The translations under genes and the position numbers were made by a program. A stretch of DNA of 64,000 bases. Source: Nodosilinea sp. E11 (GTDB taxonomy: Bacteria; Cyanobacteriota; Cyanobacteriia; Phormidesmidales; Phormidesmidaceae). The stretch covers positions 4,520,001 through 4,584,000 of the forward strand of contig NZ_CP136520.1 in assembly GCF_032813545.1 (NCBI RefSeq). The letters are read 5' to 3'. The notes below the pieces were generated by a model. The model saw nothing but the letters and a program-made list of their open reading frames with translations, did not search any database and had not been told where the DNA came from. Numbering within the stretch: position 1 is the first letter of the stretch; every line of letters begins with the position of its first letter. Shown here piece by piece: positions 17,834 through 51,599 of the stretch.

Positions 17834-18430
17834 GTGACCCAGCCGCCGCCCAGCCCAGACCCCCAGCTTGAGCCTCTAACCCGCATGCAGGTGCTGGCGG
17901 CCATGGGCTTGACCGCCGTGGTGCTGTTGTTAATTGCTAAAACCTGGCTGTATTTCGACCCGGCGGAGCTGATGCCCCTTGAACTGTCGCTGGAGGATGG
18001 GCTGCTGGGCATGGGGTTAGGGTTGGCCATTACCGCAGCCAGTAGCGTCACATACCGCCTGTGGCCTGCCTATCGCCACAGCGCCGATACCTATCTGTTG
18101 CTGGTGCTAGAGCCGTTGCAATGGCCCGACTTAATTTGGCTCGGGCTGCTGCCGGGGCTCAGCGAAGAATTGTTGTTTCGCGGCGTGATGCTGCCCGCCA
18201 TTGGCATGAATGGACTAGGCATTGTCGTATCGGCAGCGAGCTTTGGGGTGCTGCACCTGAGCAGCTTGCAGCAGTGGACCTATGTGGTGTGGGCCACTAC
18301 CATTGGCCTGGTCTTAGCGACCAGCACAGTGCTGACCGGCAACCTGCTGGTGCCGATTGTGGCCCATACGGTGACCAATCTGGTGTCTAGTGCGATGTGG
18401 AAATTTCGCCAGCAGCAACCGGCGGCGTAA
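17834..18430 (+). CDS. CPBP family intramembrane metalloprotease
   Basis: 198-residue membrane protein of the CAAX-protease/bacteriocin-processing (CPBP, Abi) family. The diagnostic motifs are present in order: EELLFRG (the EExxxR motif), FGVLHL (FxxxH), and PIVAHTVTNLV near the C-terminus. Five or six hydrophobic segments surround them. Substrates of the cyanobacterial members are mostly unknown. The start is GTG. A MITE-like repeat lies 40 bp after the stop codon. Confidence 0.9.
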   Translation: MTQPPPSPDPQLEPLTRMQVLAAMGLTAVVLLLIAKTWLYFDPAELMPLELSLEDGLLGMGLGLAITAASSVTYRLWPAYRHSADTYLLLVLEPLQWPDLIWLGLLPGLSEELLFRGVMLPAIGMNGLGIVVSAASFGVLHLSSLQQWTYVVWATTIGLVLATSTVLTGNLLVPIVAHTVTNLVSSAMWKFRQQQPAA

Positions 18431-18470
18431 TTTTAGGTTTGGGTCTGCGGTTCTACCTAGCCCCTGCCAC

Positions 18471-18568
18471 TGTAGCCAGGCCGATTAAGACATTTTTCTT
18501 GAAAACGTTCAAACGTTTGAACGTTCTTAAGGTTTCTGGATGTCCTAACCTAGGTGACTATGGCCATA
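18471..18568. mobile_element. MITE-like element, family B, copy 1
   Basis: About 98 bp downstream of the CPBP gene. The left end is TGTAGCCAGGCCGATTAAGACAT and the right end ATGTCCTAACCTAGGTGACTATGGCCATA, which are imperfect inverted repeats of each other. The core is a palindrome built from AACGTTC units (AAAACGTTCAAACGTTTGAAC). The same element recurs at 51484-51581. The ends resemble those of the family A elements in this window. Confidence 0.7.
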
Positions 18569-18729
18569 ACACTTCAAACCGTAACTCTGCATACAGTTGT
18601 CAGAGCTTCTTGGCAATATCAATAGAATGCGGGGTTTGGTATCACCCTTATCTAAAAATTCTGTTTATTCTGTCTGAAGGGCATCAGTGCCCTCCCCCCT
18701 TAACCCTTTGGGATGAGAACAGGTAGCCC

Positions 18730-19310: not shown

Positions 19311-20381
19311 ATGCACCAAACTCAGGATCTTCACGTTGTTGAGACTCGCCCCCTAGTCAGCCCCGCCCTGCTGCACCACGAGTTGCCCATGTCGCCCGAG
19401 GCGGCAACGCTGGTGGCCGAAGCGCGCGATCGCATTCGCCACATTCTCTACAACGAAGACCGTCGCCTGCTGGTGATTGTCGGCCCCTGCTCGGTGCACG
19501 ACATTGATGCCGCCTACGAGTATGGCCAAAAGCTGGTCAACCTGCGTCACGAGCTATCGGGCCAGCTCGAAATTATCATGCGGGTCTACTTTGAGAAACC
19601 CCGCACCAATGTGGGCTGGAAGGGGTTAATCAACGACCCCCACCTCGACGGTAGCTACGACATCAACACCGGCCTGCGCCTGGCCCGCAAGCTGCTGCTC
19701 GACCTGGCCCAACTGGGGCTACCCGCCGCCACCGAGCTGCTCGACCCAGTTACCCCCCAATACATTGCCGATCTAATTGCCTGGACGGCGATCGGGGCGC
19801 GCACCACCGAGAGCCAAACCCACCGCGAAATGGCCTCGGGACTCTCGATGCCCATTGGCTTTAAAAACAGCACCGACGGCAGCCTGCAAGCCGCCATGAA
19901 TGCCATGGTGGCCGCCAGCCAGCCCCACCACTTTTTGGGCATTAACCACAGCGGGTTGGCCAGCATTGTCACTACGACGGGTAACCCCGACGGCCACCTG
20001 GTGCTGCGCGGCGGCAAGGGCGGCCCCAACTTTAGCGACGACCACGTAGCCAAAGCTGCCGAGGAGATGGCCAAGCTTAAGCTCAACCACCGAATGATGG
20101 TCGATTGCAGCCACGCCAACGCCAACAAAGACCACAACCGCCAGCTAGCTGTGCTCGAAGACATTGCCGCTCAGGTGCGCGGCGGCTCACGCAACATTCT
20201 CGGTGTGATGATTGAGAGCCACATTAAGGCGGGCAACCAGTCGATTCCCGATGACCTGCGGCAGCTTACCTACGGCCAGAGCATTACCGATGCCTGCGTC
20301 GATTTTGATACTACCGCTGCTATGCTGCGGAAGCTCGCTAGTGCGGTAGAGCCCTCATTGCAGACGGCACCGCTAGGTTAA
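19311..20381 (+). CDS. aroF: 3-deoxy-7-phosphoheptulonate (DAHP) synthase, type I
   Basis: First enzyme of the shikimate pathway, condensing phosphoenolpyruvate and erythrose-4-phosphate for aromatic amino-acid synthesis. The 356-residue protein carries VGPCSVHD, MRVYFEKPRTNVGWKG, AIGARTTESQTHRE, PIGFKNSTDG and the metal-site segments VDCSHANANKDH and MIESHIKAGNQ, all characteristic of the AroF/G/H group. The frame is open to 19263, but the ATG at 19311 matches the family N-terminus. Which aromatic amino acid inhibits it cannot be told by eye. A strong terminator follows. Confidence 0.95.
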   Translation: MHQTQDLHVVETRPLVSPALLHHELPMSPEAATLVAEARDRIRHILYNEDRRLLVIVGPCSVHDIDAAYEYGQKLVNLRHELSGQLEIIMRVYFEKPRTNVGWKGLINDPHLDGSYDINTGLRLARKLLLDLAQLGLPAATELLDPVTPQYIADLIAWTAIGARTTESQTHREMASGLSMPIGFKNSTDGSLQAAMNAMVAASQPHHFLGINHSGLASIVTTTGNPDGHLVLRGGKGGPNFSDDHVAKAAEEMAKLKLNHRMMVDCSHANANKDHNRQLAVLEDIAAQVRGGSRNILGVMIESHIKAGNQSIPDDLRQLTYGQSITDACVDFDTTAAMLRKLASAVEPSLQTAPLG

Positions 20382-20419
20382 GCTTCAGGGTCTTGCGATA
20401 CTGGAAGCTAAGGCTTGCA

Positions 20420-20454
20420 GACCCCAGGGTTTTTCAAGAACCCTGGGGTCTTTT
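20420..20454 (+). terminator. intrinsic terminator after DAHP synthase
   Basis: A perfect 11-bp stem, GACCCCAGGGT paired with ACCCTGGGGTC around a 9-base loop, followed by TTTTG. It is 38 bases after the DAHP synthase stop and just before a MITE-like element. Confidence 0.9.
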
Positions 20455-20459
20455 GCTGT

Positions 20460-20640
20460 TATAGCTATAGCCAATCAGGTTAGGACAGAGCCAACATCAT
20501 TAGGACATTTTGCTTGCAACGCCCCCCCTGCCTGTCATTCCCGCGTGGGCGGGAATCCATTCGAGAGCAATTACAGGTTAGTGAATTCCCGTTGCCACGG
20601 GAATGACGGTTCTGTCCTAACCTAGATGACCACGGCTATA
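20460..20640. mobile_element. MITE-like element, family A, copy 1
   Basis: About 181 bp. The left end reads TATAGCTATAGCCAATCAGG and continues TTAGGACAG; the right end is TGTCCTAACCTAGATGACCA then CGGCTATA. The interior contains two palindromes of the form ATTCCC-N8-GGGAAT (near 20538 and 20585), separated by TCCATTCGAGAGC. A 20-base direct duplication near the left end (AGCCAATCAGGTTAGGAC / AGCCAACATCATTAGGAC) is unique to this copy. Related copies lie at 28812 and 30491. The right terminal repeat supplies the start codon of the next reading frame. Confidence 0.75.
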
Positions 20641-21012
20641 TTTCGGGTTTTCCCGAGCTATCGCAGTGGCACCCTGGTGCGCTTGCAATCGGTGTTGCCT
20701 GTCACCCTAGACGCCCAACTGCTCTATCCTGATCAATCCCCGATTGCGGATCGCAATGGGGCTGTGGTCTCAACCTCTGGAGCCCTTGCCCGACCCCTCA
20801 TGTTTACCACCGACGCCACCGGGCGGATAACGGTCAGCGGCCTCAAGCCAGGGGATTATGAAATTCGCTTGTTTACCGCCGCCGAAGAACTGGTGATAAT
20901 TACCATTCCGCCAGGCCACAGCGGTATTTTCGAGGCTGGCAGTCTGATCACAACCCCCACCTATGAGGACGATGAGGACGATTTTGAGGATGATTCCTTT
21001 GAAGATGAGTAA
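20626..21012 (+). CDS. usher-like C-terminal fragment (probable gene remnant)
   Basis: 128 residues. The stretch from residue 6 (FRVFPSYRSGTLVRL) through PLMFTTDATGRITVSGLKPGDYEIRLF resembles the C-terminal carboxypeptidase-regulatory-like domains of outer-membrane ushers that assemble chaperone-usher fimbriae. A complete usher has about 800 residues, so the beta barrel and plug are missing here. No signal peptide. The tail is strikingly acidic (EDDEDDFEDDSFEDE). The ATG lies inside the terminal repeat of the MITE-like element at 20460-20640 and has no clear ribosome site. I infer a 5'-truncated remnant, possibly cut by the element; an expressed small protein cannot be excluded. Confidence 0.55.
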   Translation: MTTAIFRVFPSYRSGTLVRLQSVLPVTLDAQLLYPDQSPIADRNGAVVSTSGALARPLMFTTDATGRITVSGLKPGDYEIRLFTAAEELVIITIPPGHSGIFEAGSLITTPTYEDDEDDFEDDSFEDE

Positions 21013-21185
21013 TACCAATCGTTCATGCTGCCAAGGCGACACCTCGAAGTGCGATGGCCATCGCTTTAGACCACACCAGCGATCGCCCACCCCCGCCGCC
21101 CTGCAACCTGTCACCACACCTAGCAGAACCTGACACCCAGCCGATAAGCTAGAGAGTGCAATCGATTCGCCCTCTCTGATTTGCC

Positions 21186-23282
21186 ATGAACCGCATTTTT
21201 CGCGCCCTGACGGCTCCGCTGCTGGCTACCACCCTGCTGGCGGGTTCCATCCCTCTCCCCATCGGCAACGCCCGCGCCCAAGAGTCGGTGTCGCCCCGCG
21301 TTGCCCAGTTGCCCCGCACCCCCGACCAGGTGGTGGAGTGCGAGCTGCTGATTGTGGGTGGCGGCCTAGCGGGCACCGCAACGGCCTACGAGAGCCTAAA
21401 AATGGGCCACACCGTCTGCATGACCGAGCTGACCGACTGGGTGGGTGGGCAGATCTCATCCCAGGGCACCACCGCCCTCGACGAGTCGCGGGAGCAGCGC
21501 AACCAGCTATTTTATTCGCGGGGCTATAAAGAACTGCGCGATCGCGTCGCAGCCAAGTATGGCGAACTCAACCCCGGCCAGTGCTGGGTGAGTGTCACCT
21601 GCTTTATGCCCGCCGATGCCAACGCCATTTTGATGGAGATGCTGGCCGAGGCCGAGCGGGAGGGCGGCGGCGAACTGCGGTGGTTCCCCAATACCGTGGT
21701 CAAAGATCTGAGCCTGAATGCCGACGGCACTCACATTGACGAGGTGATCGCCATTCGCCACAGCCCGGCATCGGGCACCGCACCGCTCAACACCGACTTT
21801 CTCTCGGAGGTGATCGAAGACGCCTACACCTACCAAGACTCGGCCCGGCTCTCGAAGGAGATTATTCGGTTTGTGCCAGCGGGTACTGGGGCTAGGCAGG
21901 GCGCAGCCCCCAGTCGGGTCGACTGGTTTGTGGTCGAAGCCACCGAGACCGGCGAGCTGATCGTGCTGGCCGATGTGCCCTACGAGCTGGGGCTAGACCC
22001 GCGATCGCCCCTCAACCCCTCGTCGCCCGTGGCCGAGCGCGACCCCTACTGCACCCAGGGCTTTACCTACACCTTTGCCATGGAGCGCACTGCCGAGGCT
22101 CAGACCTTTGATGTGCCAGAGTTTTACAGCATCTACGAGCCCTACTACAGTTGGGAAAAAGAGCGCCCGCAACTGCTCACCCCCCAAGACCACTTTGACT
22201 TTGTCTTTACCTACCGTCGTCTGTGGAGCGCCGCGCCGCGCCGCACCGGGGAGCGGATCTTTGGCGCACCGCGTCCGGTGCCCGGCGATATCTCCATGCA
22301 GAACTGGACCTGGGGCAACGACTACCGCCCTGGCACCAGCCGCGATAACTTAATTCTCACCGAAGATCAGCTGCGGGCCAGCGGCCAGCTAGCGCCGGGG
22401 GGCTGGTTGGGGGGGCTGCGTACCGAAACCCTGCGGCGGGGCGAAGAAAATGCGATCGGTTTCTTCTACTGGTTGACCACCGGCACCACCGATTCGCAGA
22501 TCGCTGATTCTTGGAAAGAACCCGAGCCCTACAACCGTTATCTGCGAGGGTTAGACTCGCCCATGAATACCGCCCACGGCCTGTCGAAGTACCCCTACAT
22601 TCGCGAGGCCCGGCGGATTGTGGGTCGGCCTTCGCCCGGCTACGAGAGCGGCTTTATGATCAGCGAAATCGACTTTTCGTGGAATGATTTCAACTCTGCG
22701 TTTTACCGAGAAAATCTAGATCAGAGCACGTTTACCTCCATGCGACGCTTTTTGGCGGGGCTCGACACCATCGACACGTTTATGCCCGGTGCCGACCCCA
22801 ACGAGTTCCCCATCCGGGGGCGATCGCGCATTTACCCCGACTCGGTCGGCATTGCCCAGTATGCGATCGATTTTCACCCCTGCATGCGCGACTACCCGCC
22901 CGAGGCCCCCGGCAACATTGAGCGGCCCGGCGTGCGTCAGGCCCACGGCCAGGCCTACCCGGCCCAGATCCCGCTGCGGGCGATGATTCCTCAGCGGGTC
23001 GACAATATGCTGGTGGCTAGTAAGAGCATTGCTGCTAGCACCATTGCTGCCGCCGCCTACCGGGTGCACTCCTTTGAGTGGTCGGTGGGGGCCGCCGCTG
23101 CCCACACCATCGACTTCTCGTTGCGCAACGGCGTGCTGCCCTACGAAATGGTGGTCAACCCCTTAGCCGAAAGCCCCTACCTAGAGGCGCTGCGGGCCGA
23201 GCTAGAGGCCAGTGGCAACCCGACGAAGTTCCCCAACACCTCGATCTTCAACGAAGACTGGGGCAACTGGCGACCCTGGTAA
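21186..23282 (+). CDS. exported FAD-dependent oxidoreductase
   Basis: 698 residues. A signal peptide covers about residues 1-32 (MNRIFRALTAPLLATTLLAG, cleavage probably after NARA). The dinucleotide-binding fold follows at once: CELLIVGGGLAGTATAYESLKMGH and TELTDWVGGQISSQG, typical of the FAD_oxidored group. PYIREARRIVGR and the C-terminal RVDNMLVASKSIAASTIAAAAYRVH with YRVHSFEWSVGAAAAHTI close the FAD site, as in related flavoproteins. The substrate is unknown. There is no twin-arginine motif in the signal, which is unusual for an exported protein with a bound flavin. The gene is alone and ends at a strong terminator. Confidence 0.85.
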   Translation: MNRIFRALTAPLLATTLLAGSIPLPIGNARAQESVSPRVAQLPRTPDQVVECELLIVGGGLAGTATAYESLKMGHTVCMTELTDWVGGQISSQGTTALDESREQRNQLFYSRGYKELRDRVAAKYGELNPGQCWVSVTCFMPADANAILMEMLAEAEREGGGELRWFPNTVVKDLSLNADGTHIDEVIAIRHSPASGTAPLNTDFLSEVIEDAYTYQDSARLSKEIIRFVPAGTGARQGAAPSRVDWFVVEATETGELIVLADVPYELGLDPRSPLNPSSPVAERDPYCTQGFTYTFAMERTAEAQTFDVPEFYSIYEPYYSWEKERPQLLTPQDHFDFVFTYRRLWSAAPRRTGERIFGAPRPVPGDISMQNWTWGNDYRPGTSRDNLILTEDQLRASGQLAPGGWLGGLRTETLRRGEENAIGFFYWLTTGTTDSQIADSWKEPEPYNRYLRGLDSPMNTAHGLSKYPYIREARRIVGRPSPGYESGFMISEIDFSWNDFNSAFYRENLDQSTFTSMRRFLAGLDTIDTFMPGADPNEFPIRGRSRIYPDSVGIAQYAIDFHPCMRDYPPEAPGNIERPGVRQAHGQAYPAQIPLRAMIPQRVDNMLVASKSIAASTIAAAAYRVHSFEWSVGAAAAHTIDFSLRNGVLPYEMVVNPLAESPYLEALRAELEASGNPTKFPNTSIFNEDWGNWRPW

Positions 23283-23312
23283 GGGAACTGGAGCTAACTC
23301 ACCTACCAAAAT

Positions 23313-23348
23313 GAGGACGGGGGGCGATCGCCCCCCGTCCTCGTTTTA
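23313..23348 (+). terminator. intrinsic terminator with HIP1 at the loop
   Basis: A perfect palindrome: GAGGACGGGGGG, CGATCG, CCCCCCGTCCTC, followed by GTTTTA. The HIP1 octamer GCGATCGC forms the tip of the hairpin. It is 31 bases after the flavoprotein stop and 46 bases from the end of the convergent SLH gene. Confidence 0.9.
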
Positions 23349-23393
23349 GTCATAACCGGTCACTATCGAGGCCAGATGCTCATCGAGGTTAGA

Positions 23394-24629
23394 TTATTGA
23401 ACCGATAGCAGCAGGGTTTCGTTGACCGTCAAGGTGAGATCGCGGCTGGGGTTAATGGCAATTACATCTACGCGATCGCGCCCGAAGATTCTGGCAGCGG
23501 TCGCCCCGGTGGCGGCCCCGGCTAAGACCTCTAGGGTGCCAACGCTTTGATCACCGGTCGTGCGGGCGATCGCAGCGGCAGCCCCCGAACCGAGCACAGC
23601 TCCGGCCAAGGTCTGGCCAAAGCTAGCCCCCTGGCGGATGGTTTCGGTGGTCGTCACCGTTTGCGATGTGGCGTTAATCGCCAGGCTCTGCCCGTTGGGT
23701 AGCACCAGTTGTTGGGCCACAAACTGGGAGCCATTGCCGCTGGGGCGTAGTTCTCCCACCACCCGACTGCCCGCCGGTACTAAGACGCGCCCAGTGCCAT
23801 CGGTCGCAGCCTGAGTCACCGTCAGGGTTAGAGCCGCCGTCTCACCGGGAAGCACCACCACTTTGTCACCCTGGTCGTAGGCCATCGTTAGGCTGGTGCC
23901 GGCGGGCAGGTTGGGCTGAACGGCAACTTGCTGCCCCACAATAAAGGGAGAGTTGACCGTAGCCACCTGGTTTTGGCTGGCCAAGGCCTGGTAAATAAAG
24001 GCGGCCACCTCGGCCCGAGTCGCCGTTTGGTTAGGTCTGAGCACCTGCACGTCGGGGTAGTTGACCACCATGCGCTGTTCTGTGGCTGCCGCCAGGCTAG
24101 CCACCGCATAGGCAGGAATTGTAGCCGAGTCGCGGTAGACACGAATGCTGTCTGGGTTGCTGGCGGTGTAGTTGAGCCCGTTGGCTAGAGAAACGAGCAC
24201 CTGAGCCCGGGGAATATTTTGGTCTGGCTGGAAAACATTGCCGGGGTAGCCCGACAAAAATCCCATCGTATCGGCTTCCCGAATGGCGGCGGCGGCCCAG
24301 TAGTTAGGGGGCACATCGACAAAAGCCGTGGCTCCCCGCACCGAAGCCCGGTTAAAGGCCCGGCGCAGCATAGCGGCGTACTGGGCGCGAGTCACGGGCT
24401 CATCGGGGCGAAACGTGCCATCGGGAAAACCAGCGATCACATCCCGAGCAGCCAAGTTGTTGATGAATTGATAGGCCCAATGGCCAGCGGGTACGTCAGC
24501 AAACTGGGTCTGGGGCTGAGTTTGAGCAATCACTGGCGCAGCAGAGATCACCGGGGCAAAGGCCCCAACGGTTAACCCCAGGGCCAGCATTAGGGCAGCA
24601 CCAGATTTGGCGCGAAAAGAACTAGGCAT
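23394..24629 (-). CDS. S-layer homology (SLH) domain protein with TrbI-like C-terminal region
   Basis: 411-residue envelope protein. A signal peptide ending near AQTQ is followed by three SLH repeats: FADVPAGHWAYQFINNL, FVDVPPNYWAAAAIREA and a divergent third around SIRVYRDSATIPAYAVASL. SLH repeats bind pyruvylated cell-wall polysaccharide. The C-terminal half (from about 250) contains LVPAGSRVVGELRPSGNGSQ and LVLPNGQSLAINATS, a pattern reminiscent of the TrbI/VirB10 barrel, then a Gly/Ala-rich helix segment. It lacks the OprB porin barrel of cyanobacterial SLH porins. The ATG at 24629 has TTTGGAG upstream; the frame extends to 24668. Confidence 0.85.
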   Translation of the reverse strand: MPSSFRAKSGAALMLALGLTVGAFAPVISAAPVIAQTQPQTQFADVPAGHWAYQFINNLAARDVIAGFPDGTFRPDEPVTRAQYAAMLRRAFNRASVRGATAFVDVPPNYWAAAAIREADTMGFLSGYPGNVFQPDQNIPRAQVLVSLANGLNYTASNPDSIRVYRDSATIPAYAVASLAAATEQRMVVNYPDVQVLRPNQTATRAEVAAFIYQALASQNQVATVNSPFIVGQQVAVQPNLPAGTSLTMAYDQGDKVVVLPGETAALTLTVTQAATDGTGRVLVPAGSRVVGELRPSGNGSQFVAQQLVLPNGQSLAINATSQTVTTTETIRQGASFGQTLAGAVLGSGAAAAIARTTGDQSVGTLEVLAGAATGATAARIFGRDRVDVIAINPSRDLTLTVNETLLLSVQ

Positions 24630-25298
24630 GGTTGAAAAACTCCAAAGACAAGCAAAGGGGGAACACATCCTGATCAGACTCGGTTCAAGGCACTTTTACA
24701 CAGCTCTTTTGAGGTCAATTGAGCAGTCGTTTGGGTAGCCAATGACAGCTAAGCAACCGAAAGATTGACCAGAATTTCTATTTCTTTAAGAACCCAAAAA
24801 AGTTTGCCAAAGACCACCTAAAACTGGAAGCAGGACAATTGCATAGCTTTAGCAACCCTTCCTTCAGTGTTGAAAGATGATTACCTCTCGCTCTCCTTAA
24901 TCTAAGATTACTATTGCCATAGTTACCGATGAGCTTTCCGCTATTTCAACTGTCACAGTCATAATTCTCCCCAAGGTCTACCTCATTCTTCCTCCCATTG
25001 GGGGAGTGTCGCTATCGGCATAACCAGGACAAGATCAATTTCAGGTCTAAAAGTTCCAGCTTTTTCGCTATTGCTAATTCACGCCAAAGCTGAAGGGCAT
25101 CACCCCATTGCCATGAAAAAATCCCAACTAAAAGCCTGGCTAAGGTCATCCTAGCCAGGCTGATACCAAATCCTGTTTGGGCTTCCCGCTTGGAGGGGAA
25201 ACGTGTAGACGGGACAAAATAGCGCTGAAAGTGCTTGGGGGCAGCTGTCGCGATCGCCCCCACCGCCATCACCCAGAACTAGGGAAGATCGGGAGAGG
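24630..25298. other. long intergenic region, no supported gene
   Basis: About 670 bases. The right part near the SLH gene (24630-25000) is AT-rich and presumably contains its promoter. A minus-strand frame of 86 codons at 25012-25272 has no recognisable similarity, no good ribosome site and atypical composition, so it is not called. No repeats or strong hairpins are seen. Confidence 0.4.
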
Positions 25299-26183
25299 CT
25301 AAATCTCCGCCACAGCCCGTTCGATTAGACGGCGAGCTAGGGTCTGAGTGCCCGTGTGCTCGTAGTACTTCACCGACATATCTAAAAACGCGCCCAGGTA
25401 GTCGAGCTTGCCCCTAGAGCCCTCGATAAAACCGCCCAAATTATCGACTAGGCCGCCCTGGGTAATGTTGTGATCGCCCACAAATTTATCCATCCAGCCC
25501 TTGGTTGACTCAAAGCTCTCGGTCATAAACGAAAGCTTGGCCCTGTCGTTTTTGCCAGGAATTTCGTCTTTGATGCCCTTAAAGGTTTGGTTGCCGTCGA
25601 GATCGCTCGGCCCCATACCTTTGATGGCATTGAGTGCCTTAGTCGAGAAGTCGGCCCCGAGGGGAATGATGCCGTCGAAGCTGACCAACGCCGCCATGCG
25701 AATCAGTGACTCGCTGCTGTAGTCGCCAAGGGCGGCGAGAAAGTCGCCCAGGCTATCGCCGGGGATGCCGCTGATTTTACAAAAAGCGACTACCTCGGTG
25801 ACCAGCTTCACCGCTAGGTCAATGGTCTGGGCTTTTTCGGGCTTAGGGGAGAGGTTTTTGAGAAAGCCCAAAAAGGTGTCTTGGCCAATGCGGTTGGCCA
25901 AGGCCGCTGCCCCCAACAGGCCAGAGGCCGAGTCAACGGTTTGGTAGAGCCATAGAGCACTCTGGTAGCCCTGCTTTTTGTCGTTAAACAGAGCGATCGC
26001 CCGTTCACCAATGGCCTGCACCATAGCGGCATCGGTTTCGCCCGTGACCGTTTTGATGGTGTTGTCAAAGCCCACTAAGTTGTTCCACTGGCCAGGGACA
26101 ACATTGTCGAGGGTTTTGAGCGCCCGCACCGTTAGCCCGCCCGTGGGGAGCTTATCAACAATTTCGTAAATTTTTTTGCTCAC
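25299..26183 (-). CDS. conserved-looking hypothetical protein, helical
   Basis: 294 residues, soluble, no signal peptide. I do not recognise the family. The sequence is predicted mostly helical, with regular Leu/Ala spacing and motifs such as GFDNTIKTVTGETDAAMVQAIGE and SALWLYQTVDSASGLLGAAALANRIG, and it keeps good coding character throughout. The ribosome site before the ATG is plausible (AAGGAGCC). It is the last of three minus-strand genes of unknown function (27685 to 25299) separated by 166-205 bp spacers, so they may be regulated together without forming one tight operon. Confidence 0.75.
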   Translation of the reverse strand: MSKKIYEIVDKLPTGGLTVRALKTLDNVVPGQWNNLVGFDNTIKTVTGETDAAMVQAIGERAIALFNDKKQGYQSALWLYQTVDSASGLLGAAALANRIGQDTFLGFLKNLSPKPEKAQTIDLAVKLVTEVVAFCKISGIPGDSLGDFLAALGDYSSESLIRMAALVSFDGIIPLGADFSTKALNAIKGMGPSDLDGNQTFKGIKDEIPGKNDRAKLSFMTESFESTKGWMDKFVGDHNITQGGLVDNLGGFIEGSRGKLDYLGAFLDMSVKYYEHTGTQTLARRLIERAVAEI

Positions 26184-26349
26184 AATTGGCTCCTTATGTC
26201 TGCCTTAGTTGCTGATGATGAGGATCAAGGATTCAAGACCGTGGCCTAGACGCCTGGCTAACCACCGTTAGGTAGATGCCTAACCTACCCAGCGTGGTGT
26301 GAATAGAGTTCTAAGGCCTAACGTCACTACTGCCTGGCGGCCTAAATCG

Positions 26350-27003
26350 CTAGGTGGCAGGCTGAAGCTCAGGCGACGATCGCGGCAATTGCACCCTGGG
26401 CAGCTTGAATCCAGGGTTCTTTGGTCCACGGCTGGCCTGGGTGTTGTCTGGAGCCACTGAGGGGGCCGCCGCCTTAGCGGCTGGGTTGAGCGCCCTTTTA
26501 AGCTGGGCTAGCCCTTCAAGATCAAACTTTTGTAGCCAGGTCACCCGGTCTGCTTTCGTGAAGGAAGGGTCGCGCGAGAGCACCTTGACCTGGTAGCGAT
26601 CGTTCACCAACACCCCAGTGGCCGTGGTGCCCTGGTCTACGGCGGGAAAGCCCTCTACCGACTCAGTAGCAGAGCTGTACTTTTCCGCTGAGCCTGGCAC
26701 GCTGGTGGTGTCGCTAATGGTGAGCATGGCCAGGGTGGTGTTTCCCTGCTGAAGCTTATATTCGGCAAAGCCCTTTTTCTCTTGGTAAGGAATGACGTTA
26801 TAGCCATCCTGATCCCCAGGGAAAAATTGGTTGAACGTGCCGCCCTTCTCGGCTTTTTTATCGACCGCCGCCGGGGCGCGAAAACCAGTGGTGTCTTTTT
26901 GCACCTGGTCATAGTTAGAAGGGGCCGACGAACAGGCCGTGACCAGCAATACTAGGCACACCATCAGGGGTGCTAGTCGCCGCAACCAGCGAGTAAAACT
27001 CAT
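26350..27003 (-). CDS. putative lipoprotein, unknown function
   Basis: 217 residues. The ATG at 27003 is preceded by TTAAGGAGAG, a very good ribosome site, and gives a classical lipoprotein signal: RR-containing n-region, hydrophobic stretch and lipobox LVTAC with Cys24. The mature part (NQFFPGDQDGYNVIPYQEKKGFAEYKL and following) forms an alternating strand pattern, and the C-terminus is Ala/Pro-rich low complexity. I recognise no family. It lies between two other unrecognised genes on the same strand. Confidence 0.8.
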   Translation of the reverse strand: MSFTRWLRRLAPLMVCLVLLVTACSSAPSNYDQVQKDTTGFRAPAAVDKKAEKGGTFNQFFPGDQDGYNVIPYQEKKGFAEYKLQQGNTTLAMLTISDTTSVPGSAEKYSSATESVEGFPAVDQGTTATGVLVNDRYQVKVLSRDPSFTKADRVTWLQKFDLEGLAQLKRALNPAAKAAAPSVAPDNTQASRGPKNPGFKLPRVQLPRSSPELQPAT

Positions 27004-27208
27004 AAACACTCTCCTTAACAGACAAATAATGGAAGGGGCCGCAGAGAACTCTGAGCCCCTAAAGCCTATGGTTGAACCCTGCCACAGAAACATAAAGCTT
27101 CCGTAAGCGAAAATTTATCTTTTACAAAAAGAATTCTGCTGAGCAGACCTCACAGCATCTTCGATCGCACCAGGGTTTGGCTATCTCTCCTCAGGTCAGT
27201 TCCGCAGG

Positions 27209-27685
27209 CTAGAGGCCCAAAACCAGCTTAAAGCGATCGAGGGCCTCAGCCTCGGCAGCGCTGACCTTAGTGCCCGTGCCAAACAGACCGCTGCCAGCGG
27301 CTTCGGCCACGGCCACACCACAGTCATAGATAAACTGCTTGTACTCCATCACCTCTGGGGCGCTAGCCTTCCCGTCAACTAAGGCGATCGCCGCGTTGAT
27401 GTCTGCGATCGCTTCTTCGATCATGGCCCCCGACTTCACCTCCTCCGGCTTCACCTCGGGCTTGTCGAGTTTGACCTCGCCACTCTTGAGGGTTGCTTCA
27501 GAAAACGCCGCTTGAATGATCGAGTTGGCAGGATACTTAGCTGCCGCTCCGGCGATTTGCTTCGACATTGCCGCCGCCTCAATGGCCGTCGAAACCAAGC
27601 CCATATCGATCATGGCCACCGAAAGCCCAGTCATCATCGGGGCTCTGACCAGGGTTTGTAGCTCAGCGATAGTGTAGTCGCCCAT
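27209..27685 (-). CDS. small hypothetical protein, helical
   Basis: 158 residues, soluble, mostly Ala-rich helices. It begins MGDYTIAELQTLVRAPMMTG and contains SIIQAAFSEATLKSGEVKLD and a Lys/Glu/Pro linker, then IEEAIADINAAIALVDGKAS. The layout of helices with acidic loops faintly recalls TerB-like proteins, and the next gene on the other strand does contain a TerB-like domain, but I cannot assign it. It is the first gene of the three-gene minus-strand group. Confidence 0.7.
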   Translation of the reverse strand: MGDYTIAELQTLVRAPMMTGLSVAMIDMGLVSTAIEAAAMSKQIAGAAAKYPANSIIQAAFSEATLKSGEVKLDKPEVKPEEVKSGAMIEEAIADINAAIALVDGKASAPEVMEYKQFIYDCGVAVAEAAGSGLFGTGTKVSAAEAEALDRFKLVLGL

Positions 27686-28083
27686 GGCTTACCTCACAAA
27701 AAACAAATTGATCAAACAGAAATTCTTTTTACCAAATGCCTTGTTACGCATAGCTGCGCTGGGATTGCTCATGCTCCAAGAACCCTACTAGCCCAGCAAA
27801 AACCAGCAGAAGCCCATAGCAGCAGAGTTTTGTGGGCACCCTAGGTAGGCCTAGACCGAATGCCAGTATCGGCTGGGCTGAAATTTTCTCTCTCTAAAGC
27901 AACCTTAAACTGGCAACGTTAAAATTAAAGCGCTACGGTTCATTGTTCAAGTTTACTAGCTGTGGCCAGGCGGTGACCTAATTTGCCCCATCGAACGCTT
28001 TCCCAAAAAGGGAAATTTGGGCCACCTTACCCCCCTCGCCACACCTGATATTCCCTACTGAGGATGCCTACCGAGGAGGATCT
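27686..28083. other. divergent intergenic region
   Basis: About 400 bases between the helical hypothetical gene and the TerB/Mo-nitrogenase fusion gene. It holds both promoters. Immediately before 28084 there is a near-perfect ribosome site (CGAGGAGGATCTATG). No repeats or hairpins stand out. Confidence 0.5.
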
Positions 28084-28767
28084 ATGCCCACAGTCACCCA
28101 GTCTCCCTATACCCCAGAACAAGTCAAGGTCTGGCTGCGGGGGCTGCTCACCCTGGCCTGGGCCGACGGCAATTTTGACGACGACGAAAAATCCCTCATT
28201 GCCAGCATTACTGAAGACGAACTGGCCCCTGGCTTAGACTTTGACCACTTTGAGCCCGTCACCCCCGATGAGGTCGCCCAAGTGCTGGGCGATGATCCAG
28301 CCATGGGCGAAAATTTCCTGCGGATGGCGGTGATGGTGGCCTTGGCCGACGGGGTCTACTCCGTCGAAGAAGATACCCAGATTCAAGCACTGTGCGCAGC
28401 GCTGAAGCTGCAAGAAACCGTGCTCAACTCGGTGCGATCGACCCTCTACAGTCTCAAACCCGAGAATGACCAGCTGGCTGCCGGATTGCGCCCCCCGGCC
28501 CAGGGCAAACTCGACCCCCTCAAGCCCGCCCGCGAATGGCTCGACCAACTAGAGGTACACGACCCGCGCCTGGCTCGGTTTGTCTGCAAGTTGATTCCGT
28601 CCCAGTGCCCCTTTGAGCGCGATGTGGTGCTGTTTAAGAAAAAGCTGGTGCACATTCCCCCCATGTGCAAAATTAATCCACTGTATGAACAGCTCGTAGG
28701 GCTGCGGTTTCGCGCTCTGTCGTACCTGGCCGATGACTGCGGCGAGGATGTAACGCCTTTGCTGTAG
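28084..28767 (+). CDS. TerB-like domain fused to Mo-dependent nitrogenase C-terminal-like domain
   Basis: 227 residues. The first half (about 10-125) has the TerB pattern: two helical repeats each with an Asp-rich loop, AWADGNFDDDEKSLIASI and ALADGVYSVEEDTQIQAL, which in tellurite-resistance proteins are thought to bind metal. The second half (about 140-227) matches the cyanobacterial Mo-dependent nitrogenase C-terminal family: PLKPAREWLDQLEVHDPRLARF, CKLIPSQCPFERD and YEQLVGLRFRALSYLADDCGED. Despite its name, this family also occurs outside nitrogen-fixation clusters, and no nif gene is in this window. Biochemical function is unknown. Confidence 0.85.
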   Translation: MPTVTQSPYTPEQVKVWLRGLLTLAWADGNFDDDEKSLIASITEDELAPGLDFDHFEPVTPDEVAQVLGDDPAMGENFLRMAVMVALADGVYSVEEDTQIQALCAALKLQETVLNSVRSTLYSLKPENDQLAAGLRPPAQGKLDPLKPAREWLDQLEVHDPRLARFVCKLIPSQCPFERDVVLFKKKLVHIPPMCKINPLYEQLVGLRFRALSYLADDCGEDVTPLL

Positions 28768-28811
28768 GGTGCTGGCAGACGTTCAGCAACTCTGCTGTTC
28801 GAGCCCTTATG

Positions 28812-28970
28812 TAGCTATAGCCGAAATCATTAGGCCGTTTGGCTTGCAACAATCCCTGTCCGTCTTTCCCGTGAAAACGGGAATCCATTCGAGAGCAGTA
28901 CAGACTAGTGGATTCCCGCCTGCGCGGGAATGACAGCACTGTCCTAATCTGAGTGGCTATAGCTATAGCT
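28812..28970. mobile_element. MITE-like element, family A, copy 2
   Basis: About 159 bp, 44 bases after the TerB fusion gene. The left end is TAGCTATAGCCGAAATCATTA and the right end CTGTCCTAATCTGAGTGGCT then ATAGCTATAG. It contains two palindromes of the ATTCCC-N8-GGGAAT type (first one TTTCCC-N8-GGGAAT) around TCCATTCGAGAGC. Read as protein, the complementary strand gives the FPRRREST / DSRFHGKDG strings that betray this class of dispersed repeat. Confidence 0.75.
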
Positions 28971-28988
28971 AACCCAGCGAATTTGCGC

Positions 28989-29016
28989 TAAAAAAGCGGG
29001 AACCGGAGTTCCCGCC
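28989..29016 (-). terminator. intrinsic terminator of the CP12-like gene
   Basis: Read on the minus strand: GCGGGAAC, a 4-base loop region, GTTCCCGC, followed by TTTTTT. It lies 47 bases after the CP12-like stop codon. Confidence 0.85.
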
Positions 29017-29062
29017 TGAGCTGTTTGAGGGTAATTGTGCAACGGGCCTATCAAACCCGTCG

Positions 29063-29320
29063 TTAGTCTTCGTAGATCCGGCACTCCGGAGCGTCGGGAT
29101 GAGCCTTGCAATAGCGCTCAAAGGCGGTGGGCTGAGTCACCTGGCGGCGGTGAGCGGTGGATAGTTCTTCAACGGTTTCCCAGGCGATCGCAACGTCTAC
29201 CGTGTCGGTGCCATATAGAGCGGTCAGGCGGCGAGCATGCTCTAGGGCCACCCGCAACTGAGACTCTAGGGTGGGCTGAATACCGGTGGTTGGGGTAGAG
29301 AGAGTTGTCGTCAAGTTCAT
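29063..29320 (-). CDS. CP12-like protein lacking the N-terminal cysteine pair
   Basis: 85 residues. CP12 is the small disordered protein that ties phosphoribulokinase and GAPDH into an inactive complex in the dark. The core AWETVEEL (residues 47-54) corresponds to the CP12 signature AWDxVEEL, and the C-terminal loop AFERYCKAHPDAPECRIYED keeps both cysteines (Cys71, Cys80) and the GAPDH-binding tail. The N-terminal cysteine pair, which normally flanks the turn before AWDxVEEL, is absent (TALYGTDTVDVAIAW). Variants of this kind are known among cyanobacteria and phages. It is alone, with its own terminator. Confidence 0.82.
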   Translation of the reverse strand: MNLTTTLSTPTTGIQPTLESQLRVALEHARRLTALYGTDTVDVAIAWETVEELSTAHRRQVTQPTAFERYCKAHPDAPECRIYED

Positions 29321-29449
29321 GGCAGTTGGCCTCCTGTACTGTGGTTGAACTGTCTTTAGCCTAATGATAATTTAGGCGAATGACTAGAGGCTTTACATAT
29401 AAACCCTTGTTATCATTCATCAGGTTTTCTTACCTGTCATTGCTTCTGG

Positions 29450-29974
29450 TCAATCGAGCGGTGATTTGACCGCCGGTTGTTCGAGCAGATCTTGGGCAAA
29501 GCGAACGCGGTGGCGACGCGAAACCTCTTGCTCTGGGTCAACACCGTCAAAGGTGGGCGGAATCCAGGCTCGCACCAGCAGCAGCCCGCCCAGCACCAGC
29601 AAGAATGCGCAGCTGGCTAGCACCTGGGTCCAGGGAGTATCGAGCACGCCGCGCACAATAATTTCTCGCAGCACCGACACAATCGACACTTCGACCGCCA
29701 CCCCAATCGAAACGCGATGCTCTTGCAGATAGATAATCAGCAGCCGAAACAGCTCCACCAAAATCAGCAAAAACAGAATGTCGGCGGTCACCTCGGGAAA
29801 GTTGAGCGGCGGCAGCAGCGAAAGAAACATCTCCCGCAGCTGCATCACCATGAAGCTGAACAGCCCCATACAGAGCGAAATTACAATCAAATCTTGAACT
29901 AGCTCAAGCAGACGAACCACATAGTTGCCATTGAGCCAGGTGGCCCAGCGGGAGGAGGTAGGGAGGTTTTGCAT
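29450..29974 (-). CDS. PsiE-family (phosphate-starvation-inducible) membrane protein
   Basis: 174 residues with four hydrophobic segments (about 28-48, 63-80, 84-105 and 116-136). The arrangement with LELVQDLIVISLCMGLFSFM, LVELFRLLIIYLQEHRVSIGVAVEVSI and REIIVRG is that of the PsiE family, whose molecular role is unknown even in E. coli. The name reflects regulation in E. coli and does not prove phosphate control here. A G-rich repeat stretch lies directly upstream of its start codon. Confidence 0.82.
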   Translation of the reverse strand: MQNLPTSSRWATWLNGNYVVRLLELVQDLIVISLCMGLFSFMVMQLREMFLSLLPPLNFPEVTADILFLLILVELFRLLIIYLQEHRVSIGVAVEVSIVSVLREIIVRGVLDTPWTQVLASCAFLLVLGGLLLVRAWIPPTFDGVDPEQEVSRRHRVRFAQDLLEQPAVKSPLD

Positions 29975-30050
29975 AGGGGTATCGGGGGTGTGGGTGGGAG
30001 GTTTGGTGGATGAGTGGGAGTGTGGATGAGTGGGAGGGTGAATGTGTTTT
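29963..30050. repeat. GTGGATGAGTGGGAG-type degenerate repeat
   Basis: On the plus strand, two near-identical units GTGGATGAGTGGGAG (from 30006 and 30022) sit within a purine-rich, C-poor stretch that runs from the PsiE start codon to the end of the flavodiiron remnant. Complementary-type sequence (CACTCATCCAC) occurs in the array between tldD and pmbA and in the ABC exporter insert. Confidence 0.6.
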
Positions 30051-30342
30051 ATAGGTAGGGGTGCATGGCATGGGCCCTGCTGAACCAGGGGTAATCAGCC
30101 AGGCGTAGGGTGCATTGGGTCTTAAACTTGCCGTGGGAGGTAGCGATCGGCGCTGTCTTCTCAGCCTGAATCCGAAATGAGTTGTAGGTGGTGCCGTTTC
30201 GCAACTCAAACTCAATGGCGCAGCGATCGCGGGCCCAGCCTAAGCAACGAATAACAGTGGAATCGGCAGCTATTGCTGCGGCTTGAAGCGTTAAGCGGTC
30301 GGCAGGAGCGACCGCTTGAGGGGAATCAATCTGATAAACCAT
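30049..30342 (-). pseudogene. remnant of a flavodiiron protein gene (N-terminal part, Flv1-like)
   Basis: 97 codons whose first 78 resemble the N-terminus of cyanobacterial diflavin flavodiiron proteins, the enzymes that reduce oxygen to water in photosynthetic electron flow. RLTLQAAAIAADSTVIRCLGW, FELRNGTTYNSF and TSHGKF line up with the family strings RLTLQTADIA...IRSLDW, FGLQNGTTYNSF and TSHEKF. Highly conserved residues are lost (LDWDRDRF has become LGWARDRC), and after KF the frame no longer matches. A full protein has nearly 600 residues, so this is a decaying 5' fragment. It lies between a G-rich repeat and MITE-like copy A3. Confidence 0.75.
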
Positions 30343-30837
30343 GAAACTTGTCTATCCTCATTGAGATTTCACCTGACATATCTCAATGATTAGCTGCTGT
30401 CCATGATTTGTAAAATGTCAATCTCAAAACCGAATGATTAGAAATTTATATAATAAGCAATCATTGCTATTTGTGCTGCAAATATATTGAGCTATAGCCA
30501 TAGCCGACATCATTAGGACGTTTGGCTTGCAACAATCCCTGTCTGTCATTCCCGTAGCCACGGAAATCCATTCGAGAGCCATGATGGGCTAGCGGGTTCC
30601 CGCCCCATGCCTTCGCGGGGGCAGGTTCCACGCGAGAATCACGGCCCTGTTCTAACTTGATTGGCTATAGCTATAAGCCAAGGATTGAATACTTTTTAGG
30701 TTGGAGATGCCTGGCGTGGCCGCTGGGCTTTGCCTGTCGACCACGTTAGCAACCACTAGTGCACATTCTGTCCCAGGCAAAAGCCGCCCGCTATCCGATT
30801 GGCGGGTGCTACTGACGATCGCAGTCTAGGTCGCAAC
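30343..30837. other. intergenic region holding family A repeat copy 3
   Basis: 495 bases between the flavodiiron remnant and the prfC end. The first 140 bases are AT-rich and may contain the old flavodiiron promoter. The MITE-like element fills 30491-30674. The remaining 160 bases show no gene or clear terminator. Confidence 0.5.
30491..30674. mobile_element. MITE-like element, family A, copy 3 (degenerate)
   Basis: About 184 bp. The left end is GCTATAGCCATAGCCGACATC; the right end is CTGTTCTAACTTGATTGGCT then ATAGCTATAAG. One ATTCCC-N8 palindrome is preserved with one mismatch (ATTCCC-N8-GGAAAT); the second half is longer and more diverged than in the other copies. The marker TCCATTCGAGAGC is intact. 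Confidence 0.7.
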
Positions 30838-32484
30838 CTATAACGACTCAGGTTCTTTGCCAGAGACCACTGGGGCGATCGCACTCAGCTTCAGCTTCGG
30901 GTGGTCAGACACTACTTGCTGACAGTTCCACTCGTTTTTAAACAACAGCACCGGACGATCCCAGCTGTCTTTGACGGTGACCGTGTTAAAGAGCCGCCCC
31001 ACCGCTTCTAAGGCTTCCCAGCCACCATCTACCCAGCGGGCCACGGCGTAGGGTAAGGCTTCTAGGCGGGTTTCCACGCCGTACTCATGTTGCAGACGGT
31101 ACTGCACCACCTCTAGCTGGAGCTGACCTACAGCAGCCAAAATCGGGTCGCGCTTCGACTCGTCAGCGGAGAACATAATCTGCACCGCCCCCTCCTCGCG
31201 CAGTTCAGACACGCCTTTCTGAAACTGCTTGTACTTAGAGGGGTTGGGGTTCTTCAGATAGGCAAAAATCTCTGGCGAAAAACAGGGAATGCCGTCGTAT
31301 TCCAGCCGCTTACCCTGGTAGATAGTGTCGCCGATCGCAAACACACCAGGGTTATTCAGACCAATCACATCGCCGGGGTAGGCTTCTTCCAGCGATTCTC
31401 TGCCCTGGCCAAACAGCTTTTGGGGGTGAGACAGCCGTACCGACTTGCCCGATCGCGCGTGGCTGACCACCATGTCTTTCTCAAACTTGCCCGAGCACAC
31501 CCGCACAAAGGCGATGCGGTCTCTGTGTTTGGGGTCCATATTCGCTTGCAGCTTGAACACAAACCCCGAAAAATCTTCGTGGGTGGGCGCAATCTCGCCC
31601 AGGGTGCTGCTATGGGCCGAGGGCTTGAGGCCGTAGTCTAAAAACGCATCGAGAAACAGCTGCACGCCGAAATTTGTCATGGCGCTGCCGAAGAAAACCG
31701 GGGTCTGCTGCCCGGCGTGGACGGCGTCAAGATCCAGCTCTGGCCCCACTTCTTCGATCACCTCCAGTTCTTCTTTGAACTGGTAGTAGAGATCCTGATC
31801 GAGCAGTTCTTCAATGCGGGGGTCGCCAATATCTAGCACCGTGTTCTTGGCGGCTTTTTTGCCGTGGATGCTGCGCTCAAACAGATGAATCTGCTGGTGG
31901 CGGCGGTCAAACACGCCCTTGAAGCGATCGCCCATGCCGATCGGCCAGTTGACCGCGTAGGTTTGCAGCCCCAGCCGCTGCTCGATCTCATCCAGCAGTT
32001 CCAGCGGTTCGCGGGCGGGGCGATCCATCTTGTTGAAGAAGGTGAAGATGGGCAGCGATCGCATTCGGCACACTTCAAACAGTTTCAGGGTCTGCGGCTC
32101 TAGACCCTTGGCCGCGTCTTCGAGCATCACCGCGTTGTCGGCGGCGGCCAGGGTGCGGTAGGTGTCTTCGCTAAAGTCTTGGTGGCCGGGGGTATCCAGC
32201 AGGTTCATGGTGTAGCCCCGGTAGGCAAACTGAAGCACCGTGGAGGTGATCGAAATCCCCCGCTGCTGCTCCAGTTCCATCCAGTCCGACGTCGCGCTCC
32301 GCTGGGCACGCTTGGCCTTGACCGCCCCCGCCTCCTGAATAGCGCCTCCGTAGAGCAGTAGCTTTTCGGTCAGCGTCGTTTTACCGGCGTCGGGGTGGGA
32401 GATGATGGCAAAATTGCGCCGCTGCTCTACCGCATCGGCGATCGAGGCGGAGGTGGCGACAGGAGAAACAGCGGCGTCAGTCAT
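30838..32484 (-). CDS. prfC: peptide chain release factor 3
   Basis: GTPase that recycles RF1 and RF2 from the ribosome after peptide release. The 548-residue protein has the GTPase signatures [15 protein letters not shown] (G1), RGISITSTV (G2), [12 protein letters not shown] (G3) and [10 protein letters not shown] (G4), followed by the RF3-specific region ending in [16 protein letters not shown]. The ATG at 32484 starts close to the conserved [15 protein letters not shown] segment; the frame extends upstream to 32559 without conserved sequence. It is divergent from vapB. Confidence 0.95.
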
Positions 32485-32646
32485 GAACCGGGGATACTCG
32501 TAAAATTGATACGTCCTCCTATTGTAAAGGGTGGCCCTAGCGAAGCGAAACTGGGCCACAGATGCTGCCCCTGTTAACGGTTTTGCCCTTCAGTGGGGAA
32601 ATGCTAAAATCTTACCAACGTCTTACCCGAAGTGATCGAGCATCCC

Positions 32647-32910
32647 ATGGAAGTCACTCGTCTGTCGAGCAAAGGTCAGGTGATTATCCCCAAAGCGCTG
32701 CGGGTCGCTCACCACTGGGAAGCGGGGCAAGAATTGATTGCCGTGGATGTGGGCGACGGCATTTTACTAAAGCCGAAAAAGCCCTTTGAGCCCACTACCC
32801 TAGCCGAGGTAGCAGGCTGCCTAAGGTATGAAGGCTCACCCAAAAGCCTAGAAGATATGGATCGCGCTCTGCGCCAGGGGGTACTGGAGCAGTGGCATGA
32901 TCGCCGTTGA
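32647..32910 (+). CDS. vapB: AbrB/MazE-type antitoxin (VapB)
   Basis: 87-residue antitoxin. The N-terminal swapped-hairpin DNA-binding fold is recognisable from MEVTRLSSKGQVIIPKALRVAHHWEAGQEL, followed by VDVGDGILLKPKKPF. The C-terminal part should wrap the toxin. It overlaps the toxin gene by 14 bp, the usual vapBC arrangement, and normally represses its own promoter. An in-frame GTG at 32632 would add five residues; the ATG at 32647 begins the domain. Confidence 0.9.
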   Translation: MEVTRLSSKGQVIIPKALRVAHHWEAGQELIAVDVGDGILLKPKKPFEPTTLAEVAGCLRYEGSPKSLEDMDRALRQGVLEQWHDRR

Positions 32911-33286
32911 CACCAACATCATTGTGCGGCTCATCACCCAAGATGACGAATCGCAGTACCGGGCCAGCGTAGACCTCTTTCAAAACCCTGAAATTTTTAT
33001 TCCTGATACGGTGATTTTAGAGACCGAGTGGGTGTTGCGCTTTGCCTACGGCTTTAAGGCTGCTGAGATTTGCGCCGCCTTTAGAAAGATCTTTGGTCTG
33101 TCCAATGTTTATCTCGCCAACGAAAATTTAATGTCCCAGGTCTTGCAGTGGTATGAAAAGGGTCTGGATTTTGGCGATGCTTTGCATTTGGCCACGAGCC
33201 AGCATTGTTCTGCTCTCTATACCTTTGACAAGGCGTTTATCAAACGCGCCAAAACGCTCACCGACCAGCGGGTTCAAAGACCCTAA
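32897..33286 (+). CDS. vapC: PIN-domain ribonuclease toxin (VapC)
   Basis: 129-residue toxin expected to cleave RNA. The PIN acidic residues are all visible: Asp5 in AVDTNIIVRL, Glu42 in ILETEWVL, Asp94 in DFGDALHLA and Asp111 in TFDKAF. It overlaps vapB by 14 bp and is certainly its partner. The pair looks complete and intact. The RNA target cannot be predicted. Confidence 0.92.
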   Translation: MIAVDTNIIVRLITQDDESQYRASVDLFQNPEIFIPDTVILETEWVLRFAYGFKAAEICAAFRKIFGLSNVYLANENLMSQVLQWYEKGLDFGDALHLATSQHCSALYTFDKAFIKRAKTLTDQRVQRP

Positions 33287-33478
33287 ACCAACAGCTCTAT
33301 ATTCAGGCAGGTAAGCTGCGTAGCGGGGTGAGAAACCCGGTTTCAGGGAGGAACATTTAATGCCCATCATAATGCACCACTCTCTGGGTACAGCCCTGGC
33401 GGTAGCCGATGGAGTGCAGCATCTCGTCATAGTACGAGGCTATTTTGGAAATTGAACAAAACAGCTTATTAGGGTCAA

Positions 33479-33494
33479 GATATATTACTATATC
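33479..33494. promoter_or_regulatory. GATATA-N4-TATATC palindrome before the YeeE-like genes
   Basis: A perfect 6-bp inverted repeat with a 4-base spacer (GATATATTACTATATC), 26 bases upstream of the preferred start at 33521. Size and AT-rich sequence resemble operators of ArsR-family persulfide sensors (BigR/SqrR type), which often control YeeE-like sulfur transporters. No such regulator gene is present in this window. Confidence 0.4.
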
Positions 33495-33520
33495 GTTAAG
33501 CAATGAATTCAGGATTTCCC

Positions 33521-33943
33521 ATGCCCACAGAATGGCTCTACGGCCTGTTTGGCGGCATTCTGATCGGCCTTAGCGCCACCCTACTGCTGGCTCTCAACGG
33601 ACGGATCGCGGGCATCAGCGGCATGGTCAACGGGGCGATCACCTTTGCCGCCGCCGAGGCCTGGCGCTGGCTGTTTTTAGTCGGCTTAGTCGCAGGCGGC
33701 TTGGTTTACGAATATGCCTGGGCTCCCCAGTCCACTCCCACCTATCCCGTTGCCCCCGTCACCATGATTGTGGCGGGGCTGCTGGTGGGCTATGGCACTC
33801 GCATGGGCAATGGCTGCACCAGCGGCCACGGGGTTTGCGGGCTGGGGCGGCTGTCGATGCGATCGCTGGTCGCTGTCCTCACCTTCATGACCACCGGTAT
33901 TGTCACCGTATTCATCACCCGCCACCTGCTGGGCTGGGCTTAG
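33521..33943 (+). CDS. YeeE/YedE-like transporter, first half
   Basis: 140-residue membrane protein with four hydrophobic segments. It carries the family signature LLVGYGTRMGNGCTSGHGVCGLGRLS, in which the cysteines are thought to relay sulfur or thiosulfate through the channel (known for YeeE/TsuA), and an N-terminal GGILIGLSATLLLALNGRIAGISGM segment. The ATG at 33521 has CAGGA six bases upstream; 33503 is an alternative. The second half-gene follows after 20 bp, so the two products probably form one transporter. Confidence 0.88.
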   Translation: MPTEWLYGLFGGILIGLSATLLLALNGRIAGISGMVNGAITFAAAEAWRWLFLVGLVAGGLVYEYAWAPQSTPTYPVAPVTMIVAGLLVGYGTRMGNGCTSGHGVCGLGRLSMRSLVAVLTFMTTGIVTVFITRHLLGWA

Positions 33944-33963
33944 AGCCATTACAAGGAACCATC

Positions 33964-34419
33964 ATGACCACCCGTAGCGCATCCTCCCCCAACACCCTGG
34001 CGCAGAATCTGGTCGCCCTGGCTGCCGGGCTACTGTTTGGCCTCGGCCTCGGCTGTTCGCAGATGATCGACCCCCAGCGGGTGATCGGTTTTCTAGACCT
34101 ATTTGGCACCTGGGACCCTACCCTGGCCTTTGTGATGGGCGGCGCGGTGCTGGTAACGCTGATTAGCTTTCGGTTCATTTTGCGACGGTCCGCCCCGCTG
34201 CTCGATCGCAACTTCTTCGTACCCACCCGCAACGATATCGATCGCCCTCTGGTGCTCGGCGCAGCCCTGTTTGGCATCGGCTGGGGGCTGGGAGGATACT
34301 GCCCTGGACCGGCGATCGCAGCTTTAGGGCTAGGCTCAGCCAACCCACTGCTGTTTCTGGCGGCTATGCTCGCCGGATCGCTGGCCTACAAAGCCCTTAA
34401 CCCCCCGCCTCAAGCTTGA
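33964..34419 (+). CDS. YeeE/YedE-like transporter, second half
   Basis: 151-residue membrane protein, partner of the preceding gene. The motifs LLFGLGLGCSQMIDPQRVIGFLDLFGTWDP and GIGWGLGGYCPGPAIAALG are the usual second-half signatures; both conserved cysteines are present. Four hydrophobic segments. The ATG at 33964 follows an AGGAACCATC ribosome site. Fused versions of about 350 residues exist in other bacteria; here they are separate. Substrate probably thiosulfate or another sulfur compound, inferred from the family. Confidence 0.88.
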   Translation: MTTRSASSPNTLAQNLVALAAGLLFGLGLGCSQMIDPQRVIGFLDLFGTWDPTLAFVMGGAVLVTLISFRFILRRSAPLLDRNFFVPTRNDIDRPLVLGAALFGIGWGLGGYCPGPAIAALGLGSANPLLFLAAMLAGSLAYKALNPPPQA

Positions 34420-51581: not shown

Positions 51582-51599
51582 GACTTTAGGCCAAAGTTT

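Follow-up and report, generated by a model that had tools for sequence, protein, structure and literature searches.

The window, i.e. the whole stretch of 64,000 nucleotides that was analysed, belongs to the 6.1-Mb genome of Nodosilinea sp. E11 (G000, 7 contigs). In it, a frame of 128 residues stands between the genes of a DAHP synthase and a FAD-dependent oxidoreductase, and its first codons lie in a short repeat, A1. The features, in window positions, are:

19311-20381, + strand: DAHP synthase (aroG-type), the conserved left neighbour; PF00793, E=8.4e-87; 97% identical in G003
20419-20451, + strand: intrinsic-terminator-like site, 15-pair stem (8 GC), 3' of the DAHP synthase gene and adjoining the repeat
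20449-21079, no strand: segment of 631 bp absent from G003, where a CPBP/Rce1-like protease gene stands instead
20460-20640, no strand: MITE-like repeat A1, ~181 bp, ends TATAGC...GCTATA, with 58 matching places in its own genome
20460-20492, - strand: left 33 bp of A1, the right end of another subfamily, inverted (GGCTCTGTCCTAACCTGATTGGCTATAGCTATA), with an AGCC joint to the body
20626-20640, + strand: ATG ACC ACG GCT ATA, the first five codons (MTTAI), in the right end of A1
20626-21012, + strand: the 128-aa frame; usher C-terminal (transthyretin-like) domain from residue 6 to ~110, then an acidic tail
20965-21009, + strand: acidic low-complexity tail (EDDEDDFEDDSFEDE), past the conserved usher domain by alignment
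21186-23282, + strand: FAD-dependent oxidoreductase, the conserved right neighbour; PF12831, E=2.1e-50; 97% identical in G003

According to a Pfam scan, the four nearest neighbours of the frame are a CAAX protease, a GNAT protein, the aroG product and the FAD oxidoreductase, with no chaperone or pilin gene among them. Similarity to G003, the closest relative in hand, ends at position 20448 and restarts at 21080. The aroG and FAD genes are adjacent in G003 too, with the gene of a 270-aa Rce1/CPBP-like protease between them, and neither the repeat nor the usher fragment is present in that interval. A search of the E11 genome with the protease gene, run without a positive control, gave no match. 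Of the 26 genomes of the genus, four (G000, G003, G019, G009) have the two genes no more than about 6 kb apart, and the content of the interval differs in each. In the remaining genomes they are far apart or on separate contigs, which is in part an effect of draft assemblies. Some 100 bp 5' of the FAD gene are kept in many genus genomes, the rest of the interval is not.

The cargo of this interval (window 20382-21185; L084, L085 and L086 elsewhere) comprises the usher fragment, the CPBP protease and others; by labels given by eye, L085/L086 hold a peroxiredoxin-like gene accompanied by others, and a gene set that includes a probable transposase.

The repeat A1 and its start codon

The A1 family has 58 matching places in its own genome at E<=0.001, a count that takes in partial matches and copies matched on both strands, and family matches occur in relatives as well. 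A1 resembles a MITE in being short (181 bp), non-coding and bounded by inverted ends, with TATAGC...GGTTAGGACAGA read inward at both ends by eye, and the family has many dispersed copies, between which inverted matches were seen. TA stands at both ends of A1; a search for empty sites of other repeat copies, meant to show a target-site duplication, found no clean one, as the flanks were not conserved on both sides. No match was obtained when plasmid records were searched with the repeat. The body of the family, e.g. at window 20533-20560, contains GTCATTCCCGCG...CGGGAATCCA, which may resemble Neisseria dRS3-type repeats.

A1 is a chimera of two repeat subfamilies. A by-eye comparison of copies places its body and right end in the GATGACCA subfamily, with 88-95% identity to L106, L107 and L108; the 33 bp on the left are an inverted right end from the other subfamily (...CCTGATTGGCTATAGCTATA). 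The AGCC at which the two parts meet is also present in ordinary left ends (TATAGCCATAGCCAACATC), and a search that tolerated up to 3 mismatches found the fused junction at a single place in the genome. Since the left end is chimeric and unique in the genome, a rearrangement between two repeats fits better than a simple insertion.

The frame starts with the ATG at 20626, directly preceded by a TAG codon; the start coordinate of the earlier note, 20580, falls inside the repeat (20460-20640). That note had placed the ATG within the right end of the element, and this is borne out by all four inspected copies of the subfamily (L105, which is the window copy, and L106-L108), each closed by the motif G-ATG-ACC-A..-GCTATA. 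Beyond GCTATA the flanks of the four are unlike one another. Read from the repeat ATG, the frames of the other three copies run for only 12, 20 and 37 codons, so among the four it is only in the window that the ATG reaches a gene fragment. The last 15 bases of A1 encode MTTAI, and the likeness to ushers sets in with the next codon.

The usher domain in the 128-residue frame

The fragment was compared with genomes at three levels, where all counts take in the window's own genome. Matches were obtained in 17 of 38 genomes at E<=1, several of them weak and non-usher, in 19 of 63 genomes of the order at E<=1e-4 (best E=6.5e-16 and 8.0e-15), and in 40 of 388 genomes of the class at E<=1e-8 (best E=4.8e-18). 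The strong matches are the extreme C-terminus of frames that are mostly usher-sized (about 850-1130 aa); a minority is shorter (94-631 aa), some of these at contig ends or with the frame broken. Two matches, both distant, were found in plasmid records; the one in Leptolyngbya sp. BL0902 carries the annotation 'fimbria/pilus outer membrane usher protein'.

With 28 usher C-termini the fragment aligns colinearly and almost without gaps, the PSYRSGTL motif included, at 29-38% identity, and motifs such as GLKPG.YEIRLF are still intact. Usher similarity starts at residue 3-8 in the strong matches, residue 6 being the first beyond the repeat; this Phe6 aligns with an usher position held mainly by aromatic or hydrophobic residues. 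According to PMC4390875, the slr0019-type protein is the usher (PF00577) of a cyanobacterial chaperone-usher pilus. Compared with cyanobacterial ushers such as the genome's own (PF00577, C7:1785595-1788393), the C-terminal domain is alignable over its full length with the same motifs; the fragment, however, consists of the last ~105 residues only. A Pfam scan of the fragment gave nothing above the cut-off, the best being CarboxypepD_reg at a sub-threshold E=0.0075, and no match to the PF00577 barrel/plug domain within it. Intact ushers show PF00577 plus the same sub-threshold CarboxypepD_reg match at the C-terminus. Both the resemblance to ushers and its restriction to the last domain or domains, as proposed in the earlier note, thus hold: E goes down to 4.8e-18 among the 388 class genomes, and the matches are confined to the C-terminus, without PF00577.

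That the frame is no usher at all and the likeness arose by chance has next to no probability. The missing Pfam match above the cut-off would agree with it, as would the fact that the transthyretin-like fold class is common; the E-values and the nearly gap-free, colinear alignment with 28 usher C-termini rule it out.

AlphaFold2, run on a 23-row alignment (23 of the 30 rows used in the other comparisons), gave a model with a mean pLDDT of 75.9, values below 50 at residues 1-13 and 15-21, and seven strands, all between residues 26 and 108. The top Foldseek matches to the model are CnaB/transthyretin-like folds, and the C-terminal domain of the PapC usher (3l48) follows at ranks 33-34 (E=0.0016-0.0017). 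A profile search of solved structures returned weak prealbumin/CnaB-type matches and NOMO2, and no usher. By these predictions, the frame is one entire domain with a loose linker in front.

The earlier note also suggested that the element may have created the acidic tail along with the frame. The tail is not a product of the element, because it lies more than 100 residues downstream of the repeat and other ushers carry acidic, non-conserved tails too (L138, with PEEG repeats, and L004), even if most of the 29 rows have none.

Neither the 63 genomes of the order nor the 388 of the class yielded a close relative of the fragment. In the contigs of 85k species, the fragment alone gave 124 pattern matches and no relatives, and a six-row alignment gave 25 loci with 29-42% identity, all distant. 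A search for relatives with the same short protein and no element, covering the 38, 63 and 388 genomes and the contigs of 85k species, found none.

The rest of the usher and the intact operon

A PF00577 search of the genome, for which the E. coli control was positive, found one usher, away from the window locus. With a near-full usher of G016 as query (855 aa, a contig end close by), the intact usher (46% identity) was recovered together with the C-terminal part alone at the window locus. A further 19 residues upstream of the fragment, in the repeat and across the TAG, were rejected as usher sequence and read as over-extension of the alignment. The intact chaperone-usher operon is at C7:1783504-1788393, 2.75 Mb from the window locus, and consists of two small frames, a PapD_N chaperone and the 932-aa usher. 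To call the two small frames, which are without Pfam match, pilins would rest on their position only. The gene order is like that of the intact system described for cyanobacteria in PMC4390875. The genome thus holds a chaperone-usher cluster, as the earlier note had suggested looking for; the remainder of the fragment's own usher was found nowhere in the 6.1 Mb with either the PF00577 or the near-full G016 query.

In G009, the C-terminus of the usher (L011, C2:166541-166840) lies in a 388-aa open frame of a two-contig assembly, so this usher may be broken too.

Divergence, origin and meaning of the fragment

The fragment departs strongly from other ushers. With near-invariant usher positions scored by leaving one row out each time, it is changed at 9 of 24, whereas the other 29 rows show 0-5 changes, 5 of 27 being the maximum (L012 is a partial row). 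A tree of 29 rows, from which L012 was dropped, gives it an end branch of 2.28, with 0.71 for the next longest. Its identity to ushers (29-38%) is below that of all 297 between-clade usher pairs (42-62%; clades set by hand from the tree, L012 dropped). The GC content at codon positions 1/2/3 is 0.61/0.45/0.60, with 0.65-0.67 at position 3 in three intact ushers. With 88-95% identity between its body and the nearest copies, A1 seems to be of more recent date than the excess divergence of the fragment, so the usher was probably already divergent or decaying before it was cut.

The frame stays open across 123 codons beyond the repeat. We rejected this as a sign of function: in a simulation of neutral decay by substitutions without indels, with 60-72% of the residues kept, 11-39% of the runs remained stop-free, which makes an open frame weak evidence of use. 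A consensus scan for sigma-70-type sites found no promoter-like site between the terminator-like site and the ATG. The tail domains of ushers act in the periplasm, and by-eye inspection of MTTAIFRVFPSYRSGTL (MTTAIFRV...) revealed no apparent signal peptide.

On this evidence, we consider it quite likely that the frame is the relic of a second, divergent usher gene, presumably truncated by a two-repeat rearrangement at A1. The usher DNA would have entered the interval between aroG and the FAD gene among its changing cargo, with one repeat inside the usher and another near aroG in inverted orientation. An illegitimate event at AGCC could then have joined the two repeats, deleting the front of the usher, approximately 87% of it, and whatever lay in between, and the start codon of the leftover frame would be an accident. 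No deletion intermediate or ancestral site was found, and the lost DNA itself was not seen. The fragment is without the barrel, plug and N-terminal domains and an evident signal peptide, and so it cannot work as an usher. Judged from its sequence, the frame is most likely an ordinary gene remnant that owes its start codon to the repeat, and most likely without function.

The earlier note proposed, as a possibility, that the element inserted into the upstream part of an usher gene or took its place. The break does fall exactly at the repeat; insertion alone fails, because the aroG terminator and not the remainder of the usher stands to the left. With no usher on that side, DNA must have been lost or rearranged. 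That a single repeat was plainly inserted into an intact local usher with nothing else changed is accordingly very improbable, even though TA is found at both repeat ends and the usher follows directly. The sequence is G003-like from aroG to 20448 and the left repeat end is not from a single element; the absent left part of the usher rules out plain insertion as the entire story. A variant of the relic reading, with another order of events, is that the fragment came in already truncated from another genome or replicon and the full usher was never at the locus. We regard this as possible, if rather unlikely: the cargo between aroG and FAD is different in each of four genomes, plasmids can carry ushers and the order and class genomes hold no close relative of the fragment, but a donor was not found, and the chimeric repeat by the aroG terminator shows a rearrangement at the repeat without showing the site of the full usher.

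It is improbable that the frame encodes a small protein in use, with a start given by the repeat, e.g. a folded domain with an acidic tail. The open frame, the entire domain predicted to fold, the TAG-ATG arrangement at the start and the several retained usher motifs speak for use. Against it stand the broken near-invariant positions, the lack of relatives carrying the frame in the genomes searched, the terminator-like site directly upstream with no sigma-70-type promoter-like site before the ATG, and the absence by eye of a signal peptide for a domain that works in the periplasm. Still less probable is the stronger version, where the portable start codon of the subfamily would have minted a new expressed small protein, a folded usher tail domain able to bind the subunits of the intact system or interfere with them.

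MITE in-frame fusions and MITE-made pseudogenes are already known kinds. The former are reviewed for Rickettsia palindromic elements, ERIC and Yersinia RU-2 (PMC2229807, PMC10969869). In these, a non-autonomous repeat of ~100-200 bp adds codons to a frame; A1 differs in that it contributes no more than a start and five codons, the recipient is a truncated gene, and phylogenetic conservation was not found. In Anabaena sp. 90, 15 of 147 MITEs lie within disrupted ORFs (PMC3542288). The present locus is similar in having a cyanobacterial MITE at a broken gene, and differs in the loss of one side of the gene and in A1 being a two-subfamily chimera. No prior report of the present case was found in the open literature. 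Read as a relic of a truncated usher, the locus would be a clear example of how cyanobacterial short repeats rearrange and cut a gene at a domain boundary. The leftover frame is one that gene callers would annotate as a small protein, a caution against calling such frames genes. If it were expressed, it would be a candidate case of a domain freed by a MITE.

The ~19.5 kb from the FAD gene to the point where similarity to G003 returns (window 23286-42806) have no counterpart in the G003 contig, and two further A1-family repeats (28812-28967 and 30495-30675) lie inside. A shorter repeat of a second type, whose ends are related (TATAGCTGTAGCC...GGCTATA) and which has a palindrome rich in AACGTT, occurs at 18426-18575 and 51484-51586 (~105 bp at 51.5 kb), and its first copy (18426-18575) is missing from G003 at the corresponding place.
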